Positions 649 through 2,309 of a DNA stretch of 5,657 nt are shown here, in pieces. Source of the DNA: a bacterium. Its GTDB lineage: Bacteria; CAIJMQ01; JAADFP01. Position numbers and translations under genes: made by a program. A model generated the notes under the pieces. That model made no database searches. It was not told the origin of the DNA and saw nothing but the letters and a program-made list of their open reading frames with translations. The stretch is taken from positions 1 through 5,657 of the forward strand of contig JALUVB010000281.1 of the NCBI GenBank assembly GCA_027021085.1. Direction: 5' to 3'. Within the stretch, counting starts at the first letter, position 1; every line of letters starts with the position of its first letter.

Positions 649-677
649 TTGACAATCTCTTAAATAAAAGTTATCAT
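649..677 (+). promoter_or_regulatory. Sigma-A/sigma-70 type promoter for the rny gene cluster
   Basis: A perfect -35 TTGACA at 649-654, an exact 17-bp spacer, and TATCAT at 672-677 (5 of 6 to TATAAT). This is by far the best promoter in the window. Initiation is expected around 683-685, giving an rny leader of about 70 nt. The -35 starts 33 nt after the stop codon of the VIT-like gene, with no convincing terminator between them, so some read-through from upstream is possible. Confidence 0.8.
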
Positions 678-681
678 TTTC

Positions 682-748
682 TACCGCAGAGATTTTTACA
701 AAGTAATTTTAGGTAATAATAACCCCCTCTGCGGTAAAAGAAGGGGGT
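682..748 (+). promoter_or_regulatory. Structured 5' leader of rny; candidate SD-sequestering pseudoknot or alternative hairpins
   Basis: Helix 1 is a perfect 10-bp inverted repeat, TACCGCAGAG (682-691) with CTCTGCGGTA (727-736), enclosing a 35-nt AU-rich loop. Helix 2 pairs ACCCCCT (722-728) with AGGGGGT (742-748), and the latter contains the rny Shine-Dalgarno AAGGGGG (741-747). The helices share only 727-728. If helix 2 is trimmed to 722-726/744-748 both can form together as an H-type pseudoknot: the ACCCC strand abuts the 3' arm of helix 1, and a short A-rich loop (737-743) crosses it. Otherwise they compete. Either way helix 2 hides the ribosome-binding site. There is no U-tract, so it is not an intrinsic terminator. 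It does not match a riboswitch class I recognise. The pairing is seen in the sequence; regulation is inferred. Confidence 0.6.
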
Positions 749-752
749 ATAA

Positions 753-2309
753 ATGCATAAATATCTATTAGTTGCTATTCCAGTAGCGTTTTTGTTTTTT
801 CTTGTAGGCTACTTCTTCCGGAAATTCTATTCCCGTAAAGAGCTATCCAGCGCTGAAAAAAGAGCGGGTGAAATTTTAGCCGAAGCAAAGAGGGAAGCTG
901 AGAATATAAGAAAGGAGGCTCAGTTATCCGCCCGCGAAGAGCTTTACCGTATAAGAAATGACTTTGAAAGAGAAGTAAGAAACAAGAGAAATGAACTGGA
1001 GCGGCGAGAAGACAAGCTTTCTAAAAGAGAGGAGAACTTAGAGCGAAGGGTAGAATTACTTGAAATAAGAGAAAGAGAGCTGAAAGAAAGGGCTAAGAAG
1101 TTAACTGTTGCTCAGGAGGAATTAAGCGAAAAGGAGAAGAAGCTTAATGAAATAATTGAAGAAGAAAAGAGGAAATTGGTGCAAATTTCCGGGTTAAGTA
1201 TAGAGGAAGCCCGCCGGATTATTCTTTCTCAGGTGGAAAAAGAAGTCCATCAAGAAGCTGCCCTTTTAGCTAAAAAGATAGAGGATGAAGCGAAAGAAAA
1301 AGCGGAAAGAAAAGCCAGGGAAATCCTGGGCCTGGCGATTCAGCGCTGCTCCACGGACCATGTGAGCGAAAGTACCGTAAGTGTAATTCCCCTTCCTTCT
1401 GAGGAAATGAAGGGACGGATTATTGGAAGGGAAGGGAGAAACATAAGAGCGTTTGAGATGCTCACCGGGGTAAATGTGATAATAGATGATACTCCCGAAG
1501 CGGTAAGTATCTCCAGTTTTGACCCTATCCGGAGAGAAATTGCGCGGATTGCCATGGAAAGATTGGTGGAGGATGGCCGGATACATCCAGCTCGCATTGA
1601 AGAGGTGGTAGAAAAAGTTAAGGGGGAGTTCCCCGAAATTATCAAGGAAGAAGGGGAAAGAGCAGCATTTGAAATAGGCGTACATGATCTCCATCCTCAG
1701 GAAATTGAGCTTCTGGGTAAGCTCAAGTATCGCACTAGTTTTGGACAGAATGTTCTGCAGCATTCCAAAGAAGTAGCTAACGTAATAGGAATAATGGCTT
1801 CCGAACTGGGATTAGACCCTCAAATAGCCAAAAGAATTGGGCTTATCCATGATATTGGGAAGGCAATAAGCCAGGAAGTAGAAGGGTCTCATGACAAAAT
1901 AGGGGCAGAAATATCATTAAAGCTGGGAGAATCTGACGAGATTGTCCAGGCCATAAGAAGCCACCACGAGGTGGAATCACCCCAGACTTTATACGGTGTG
2001 CTTCTTCAGGCAGCCGATGCTGTATCTGCTGCCCGACCCGGAGCGAGAAGAGAAACCATAGAAAACTATGTCAAGAGACTGGAAAGGTTAGAAAATATTG
2101 CTTATTCTTTCGAAGGTGTGGAAAAGGCCTATGCCATCCAGGCAGGTAGAGAGATAAGGGTTATAGTTGAACCTCATCGGATAAACGACGGAAGTATTGT
2201 TGCCTTAGCCAGAGATATAACCCAGAAGATTAAAAAGGAAATTGAATTTGCGGGAGAGATAAGAGTTACTATTATAAGAGAAACCCGTGCCATAGAATAC
2301 GCCAGGTGA
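753..2309 (+). CDS. rny: Ribonuclease Y
   Basis: Membrane-anchored endoribonuclease that initiates mRNA decay and processing in many bacteria lacking RNase E; 518 residues, against 520 in Bacillus subtilis. Domains in order: an N-terminal membrane helix (about 4-22); a long charged Lys/Glu/Arg-rich coiled coil (about 30-190); a KH RNA-binding domain with the GxxG loop GREG at 225-228; and a metal-dependent HD domain with H337, the HD pair H366-D367, H404-H405 and D422, all intact. The C-terminal region is complete. The ATG at 753 is preceded by the Shine-Dalgarno-like AAGGGGG (741-747), one mismatch from AAGGAGG with a 5-nt gap, lying in a strongly pairable leader. The stop overlaps the ymdB start by 4 nt. 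The cluster promoter at 649-677 makes this the first gene of the transcript. Identification is secure. Confidence 0.98.

Follow-up and report, generated by a model that had tools for sequence, protein, structure and literature searches.

The window, by which we mean the whole stretch of DNA analysed here (5,657 nt), carries the gene of ribonuclease Y (rny) on the plus strand. RNase Y is the initiator of mRNA decay in many bacteria and a master RNA-degrading enzyme. To our knowledge, little is known about the control of its level outside Bacillus subtilis. In the window, rny is preceded by a promoter and a leader, in which we recognised the following parts:

649 to 654, plus strand: -35 element TTGACA of the rny promoter, with an equivalent in all seven genomes compared
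672 to 677, plus strand: -10 element TATCAT after a spacer of 17 nt; TATTAT or TATAAT in relatives
682 to 691, plus strand: 5' arm of helix P1, UACCGCAGAG, at the predicted mRNA 5' end; ACCGCAGAGA is identical in all seven genomes
692 to 721, plus strand: L1, an AU-rich loop, shorter in genome G002 and a long folded hairpin in family f2
722 to 726, plus strand: ACCCC strand complementary to the Shine-Dalgarno (SD) sequence, the candidate pseudoknot strand; ACCCC, ACCCCC or AUCCC in relatives
727 to 736, plus strand: 3' arm of P1, CUCUGCGGUA; CUCUGCGG is identical in all seven genomes
737 to 742, plus strand: L3, an A-rich linker, AAAGAA; REP-like hairpins are inserted in genomes G003 and G006
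743 to 748, plus strand: SD sequence GGGGGU, the putative partner of 722 to 726; GGGGG in place of the usual GGAGG in all seven genomes
753 to 2309, plus strand: rny, ribonuclease Y (TIGR03319, 712 bits)

The profile search found the RNase_Y_N, KH, and HD domains in the RNase Y of the window, and the start codon of rny is the ATG at 753. The closest named relative is 'Caldisericota bacterium M_MaxBin.041', whose RNase Y is 97% identical. The sample consisted of all seven genomes of the phylum in our collection (G000–G006), three from family f1 and four from family f2, and RNase Y is 56% identical between the two families. The upstream neighbour of rny is not constant, being a VIT-family gene in the window and another membrane-protein gene in f2, and the promoter and leader persist although this neighbour changes. 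PNPase (TIGR03591) was above the cut-off in all seven genomes, and RNase J (TIGR00649) was below the cut-off in all seven (G000–G006), several of these assemblies being incomplete.

The promoter upstream of the helix is a new observation, absent from the preliminary description of this DNA. It is near-consensus (TTGACA-17-TATCAT, 649–677, 11 of 12 matches), and both the promoter and the transcription start were assigned by consensus only. The start is predicted at 682–684, 5–7 nt downstream of the -10 element. Because the -10 element lies 4–9 nt upstream of P1 in every genome, we take the 5' arm of P1 to be the predicted mRNA 5' end. With the start within the first bases of the helix, P1 would therefore join the very first bases of the mRNA to a site shortly before the SD. 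A terminator-like site on the minus strand (746–723) was rejected as a candidate; it is the inverted sequence of the leader read on the other strand, and its T tract is weak.

The preliminary description had proposed a perfect 10-bp helix (682–691/727–736), followed on its inner side by a C-rich strand facing the ribosome-binding site of rny. Direct reading confirmed the helix, as TACCGCAGAG is the exact reverse complement of CTCTGCGGTA. The complementarity of the C-rich strand, placed at 722–726 and up to 728, also stood, and its limits were corrected: the C-run is C723–C727, and the strand that does not overlap P1 is A722–C726. C727 is common to the C-run and P1, and 722–726 with C727 are also the 5' strand of an alternative SD hairpin. 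Similarly, the G-rich ribosome-binding site given as 742–748 is present, its G-run being 743–747 followed by T748, and the third loop given as 737–743 is A-rich and spans 737–742. In 45 of 3000 dinucleotide shuffles of 616–752 (137 nt), a perfect helix of 10 bp was reached (P ~0.015). P1 alone is thus only moderately unlikely, and the case rests on conservation.

The leader stands in front of rny in all seven genomes of the phylum, down to an RNase Y identity of 56%. Its order is the same in each of them: ACCGCAGAGA, then CUCUGCGG(U/C) with the C-run directly 5' of it, and then the GGGGGU ribosome-binding site. P1 has 8–10 bp in the seven genomes, the SD helix has 5–6 bp, and the C strand abuts the 3' arm of P1 in all of them, with 0 nt between. 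The P1 arms are separated by ~26 to 204 nt, the distance being some tens of nt in f1 and ~170–204 nt in f2. The third loop measures 6–7 nt in all but G003 and G006, whose third loops contain an inserted hairpin. At the level of sequence, the two families keep both complementarities and their place close to the promoter while the loops vary freely, and to this extent structure and conservation are demonstrated. Between the window (genome G000) and its nearest relative G001, 1 of 71 positions differed in the leader (682–752), and 53 of 183 fourfold-degenerate sites of rny differed (29%; binomial P ~9e-10 for the leader). No 71-nt coding segment was as conserved as the leader in this pair of genomes. 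By this measure the whole leader, loop included, is under strong purifying selection. The exact form of the motif occurs once per f1 genome; elsewhere in the seven genomes, ACCGCAGAGA was never found with a TCTGCGG partner, and the element was found at rny only.

In stretches from two genomes, GGGGG was present in the SD window of 3 of 298 genes (G004) and 3 of 72 genes (G000), rny counted, and GGAGG in that of 40 of 298 and 13 of 72 genes, respectively. The rny SD is GGGGG in all seven genomes, each time opposite the conserved C-run; these seven leaders are related by descent and are not countable as independent cases of a GGGGG SD. The keeping of this rare sequence at rny, facing the C-run in every genome, supports selection for pairing between the C-run and the SD.

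Some features of the f2 leaders are recorded here as separate observations. The third-loop hairpins of G003 and G006 (leaders L006 and L005) lie between GCGGU and UAAAGGGGG and resemble a scattered REP-like family (GCCCTGAACCGAG..CTCGGTTCAGGGC). Their opposite orientations at the same site suggest two independent insertions, and the sister genome G004 has no inserted third-loop hairpin. L1 of L005–L007 (G003, G004, G006) contains a possible ORF of 15 codons (ATGAxxAAAAAxACA...CTCTTTATTTAG), which is not aligned in G005. The early rny codons of f2 (L005–L008) carry a strong hairpin, GGTTATTTCTGC..GCAGGAATAACC, in all four leaders, with the loop end changed in G005; likewise, the structure at the ribosome-binding site of B. 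subtilis rny reaches codon 13.

In P1, eight pairs are constant and the ninth (outer) pair is A-U in six genomes and A.C in one, and the only variation in the SD helix is from C-G to U-G. Covariation, named in the preliminary description as the check on both helices, lent no support among the seven genomes, as no compensatory change was found; the invariance was not counted against the helices. Because its base pairs are invariant, covariation speaks neither for nor against P1. Since neither helix has a compensatory change, we infer the pairing from co-conserved complementarity.

The energy of the P1 helix is -16.7 kcal/mol at 37 °C (f1), and that of the SD helix at the same temperature is -7.5 (window), -10.8 (G002), and -4.9 kcal/mol (f2), all before the pseudoknot penalty. 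In idealised A-form geometry, the third loop of 6–7 nt must span ~25–29 Å. With a junction of 0 nt in all seven genomes and an L3 able to span this distance, the H-type pseudoknot of the preliminary description is possible: its complementarities are conserved as a unit, it is sterically allowed, and the f1 helix energies favour it.

The alternative fold pairs the C-run and UCU with AGA-A-GGGGGU in a plain hairpin. In nested folding of the window at 37 °C, P1 (-23.5 kcal/mol) and the SD hairpin (-24.6 kcal/mol) are nearly equal. In the four f2 leaders, a long hairpin formed by the intervening sequence draws the two arms of P1 close to each other. Each of these leaders has P1 in its minimum-energy fold, 6.5–10.5 kcal/mol better than the competing SD hairpin. 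When the 5' part of the window leader was removed in silico, the predicted probability of the SD hairpin rose from 0.07 to 1.00 and the accessibility of the SD fell from 0.20 to 0.00, and the same removal left the SD fully paired in all seven leaders. Nested folding leaves the SD mostly occupied even when P1 is intact, and its accessibility in the window is not below that of shuffled leaders under the nested model (0.29 vs 0.26), so a clean on-state is not predicted.

The leader had been said to resemble preQ1 and SAM-II riboswitches in principle and to match neither class. This was borne out by cmscan, which gave no Rfam match in the leader of the window (E up to 5) or in those of five relatives (E up to 1). 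Like preQ1 and SAM-II, the leader has P1, a C-rich strand beside P1, an A-rich third loop, and the SD as the second strand. Unlike them, it has a P1 of 8–10 bp and an L1 of up to ~200 nt, and whereas preQ1 and SAM-II sit upstream of ligand-related genes, usually several, it occurs upstream of rny only. Of the two sensors suggested earlier, neither is likely. Against a general metabolite riboswitch stands the finding of the element at rny alone, and against a temperature sensor stand the apparently excessive stability of P1 (-10.9 kcal/mol even at 60 °C) and a 16S G+C content of 50–57%, which is not hyperthermophilic.

Among 76 rny leaders of other phyla, the topology was found in 1 by a strict scan, compared with 3 in shuffles, and in 3 by a relaxed scan, compared with 1.3 in shuffles. 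As there is no clear excess over shuffles, the topology is not general to rny. Nested folding of the rny leaders of 74 other species gave no signal of SD sequestration (median rank 0.49), and viral contigs held no copy of the 3' half of the leader. Pairing of the arms with rRNA was also considered; a 9-nt match in one genome was absent in the other and was taken as chance. In a literature search on RNase Y, pseudoknots, and the Shine-Dalgarno sequence, no title or abstract dealt with such a leader. We therefore regard the leader as a lineage-specific element, which would combine the self-regulatory leader of a ribonuclease mRNA with SD sequestration.

A different, conserved SD hairpin, UCUCCU-(15 nt)-AGGAGG, was observed just before rny in leaders of Aminicenantes/Acidobacteriota (L043, L085, L080, L056, L082, L055, L068, L073, and L074), a second lineage in which the translation start of rny is structured. 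It is paired in 98% of cells and has one compensatory change, U-A to A-U in L073. Six of the nine leaders also contain UUUGA/UCAAA, which would place the SD in a loop instead.

Studies have shown that ribonucleases can act on their own mRNA leaders. For example, RNase Y of B. subtilis controls its own synthesis by cutting its own 5' UTR and the start of the ORF, after which RNase J1 trims the 5' UTR to the ribosome; cleavage in the 5' UTR accounts for part of the lowering of rny mRNA by RNase Y (PMC10303841). Like the present leader, that of B. subtilis rny is AU-rich and has an unusually strong SD and a ribosome-binding site that can be drawn into secondary structure; unlike it, the B. subtilis leader is 164 nt long and has no described P1/C-run element or 5'-terminal long-range helix (PMC10303841). 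Similarly, RNase E of E. coli senses the leader of its own mRNA, rne (PMC3997798, PMC10303841), but its binding to a leader stem-loop speeds cleavage elsewhere, and the SD is not sequestered through a 5'-end clamp. The B. subtilis mechanism uses RNase J1, whereas RNase J was not above the cut-off here. As PNPase is present and RNase J was not found above the cut-off, a pathway resembling the control of pnp in E. coli is favoured over trimming by J1.

In E. coli, according to Jarrige et al. in 2001 (cited in PMC3997798), PNPase reportedly controls its own synthesis by degrading a double-stranded structure in the pnp leader. As in the present leader, the mRNA is that of a ribonuclease and has its 5' end in a long stem, and removal of the 5' strand alters translation and decay. 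In pnp, RNase III cuts first and the 5' strand of the duplex is degraded by PNPase, whereas the cut proposed here would lie in a single-stranded AU-rich loop. An explicit anti-SD C-run is present here, unlike in pnp.

The leader is probably the cell's way of setting the amount of RNase Y, because it is kept in all seven genomes and is absent from Rfam, and we hold with moderate confidence that it acts on translation. The reading that we prefer is translational control specific to rny, in which the 5' arm would clamp P1, the C-run would contest the SD, and loss of the arm would seal the SD; we give this reading an even chance. In the intact transcript, P1 would form first and shield the 5' end of the mRNA. 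With P1 formed, the SD would be contested between the ribosome and the C-run in an H-type pseudoknot. RNase Y may then cut the AU-rich loop L1, and PNPase may remove the upstream fragment, so that the 5' arm of P1 would be lost. The freed C-run with UCU would close the plain hairpin on the SD and translation would stop. An excess of RNase Y would in this way lower its own synthesis. The sign of such feedback is expected to be negative, because under both structural models the SD can only become more strongly sequestered once the 5' arm is lost. Autoregulation by RNase Y had been suggested in the preliminary description. It has a direct precedent in B. subtilis (PMC10303841), and for this leader the trigger is a hypothesis by analogy. 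Taken on their own, the cleavage trigger and the feedback, suggested by the analogy with B. subtilis rny and E. coli pnp, are put forward tentatively as the less probable outcome. The complete cleavage-operated switch, in which the 5' end would be a removable clamp strand and the cut by RNase Y would hand the other strand to the SD, we consider somewhat unlikely.

The invariance of P1 is notable and, in the genomes compared, exceeds what pairing alone needs. It suggests that the bases are read directly (by a protein, a ligand, or triples with the A-rich loop) or are frozen by dual pairing. P1 or the pseudoknot may be a sequence-specific site, at which a protein (the KH domain of RNase Y, a partner, or a ribosomal protein) or a ligand binds and sets access to the SD. 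P1 bases that stay invariant, and free of covariation, across a protein identity of 56% are expected if they are read directly, and the A-rich L3 kept beside P1 and the restriction of the leader to rny agree with this. However, the leader matches no known RNA family, we have no candidate binder, and dual pairing of the 3' arm could equally freeze the sequence, so we think such a site rather improbable. Protection of the 5' end only, in which P1 would hide the first bases from 5'-end-dependent decay and the complementarity of the C-run and G-run would be incidental, seems to us unlikely. It would account for the 5' arm of P1 being at the predicted +1 in all seven genomes, whatever the loop length, and RNase Y is stimulated by a 5' monophosphate (PMC3997798). 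It leaves unexplained why all seven genomes keep a C-run directly beside P1 together with an uncommon GGGGG SD, and why the 3' arm is placed close to the SD.

The element could also be an operator acting at the level of DNA, with the two inverted ACCGCAGAG copies, one at the promoter start and one downstream, as half-sites for a transcription factor. Neither copy varies, and the predicted transcription start falls within the first, but the spacing between them varies widely, ACCGCAGAGA has no second copy to pair with at its other sites in these genomes, and the complementarity of the C-run to the SD and the folded f2 loop are features of RNA; we therefore judge an operator quite unlikely. That the element is a functionless relic of the mobile palindromic repeats of the CGCAGAG family, known from other phyla, is highly unlikely, as inverted pairs of ACCGCAGAG...CTCTGCGG do lie inside repeat-rich palindromes of other phyla (for example, in G233, G093, and G066) but this phylum showed it at no place other than rny, where seven of seven genomes have it, and 1 of 71 leader changes against 29% at silent sites already contradicts it. 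In G233, G093, G066, and G315, the ACCGCAGAG...CTCTGCGG pairs are set in CGCAGAG-rich palindromic repeats, and these repeats are possibly the ancestral source of P1.

Returning to translational control of rny by the leader, the finding presents a leader that is compact and strongly conserved, from an uncultured phylum where we did not detect RNase J, the enzyme that works with RNase Y in B. subtilis. This leader offers a testable structure for feedback on the translation of RNase Y. If the cleavage-operated switch is true, the enzyme would feed back directly on its own synthesis, and neither a ligand nor a separate regulator would be needed. Together with the SD hairpin of Aminicenantes, the present leader suggests that different lineages may have evolved their own ways of gating the translation of rny.
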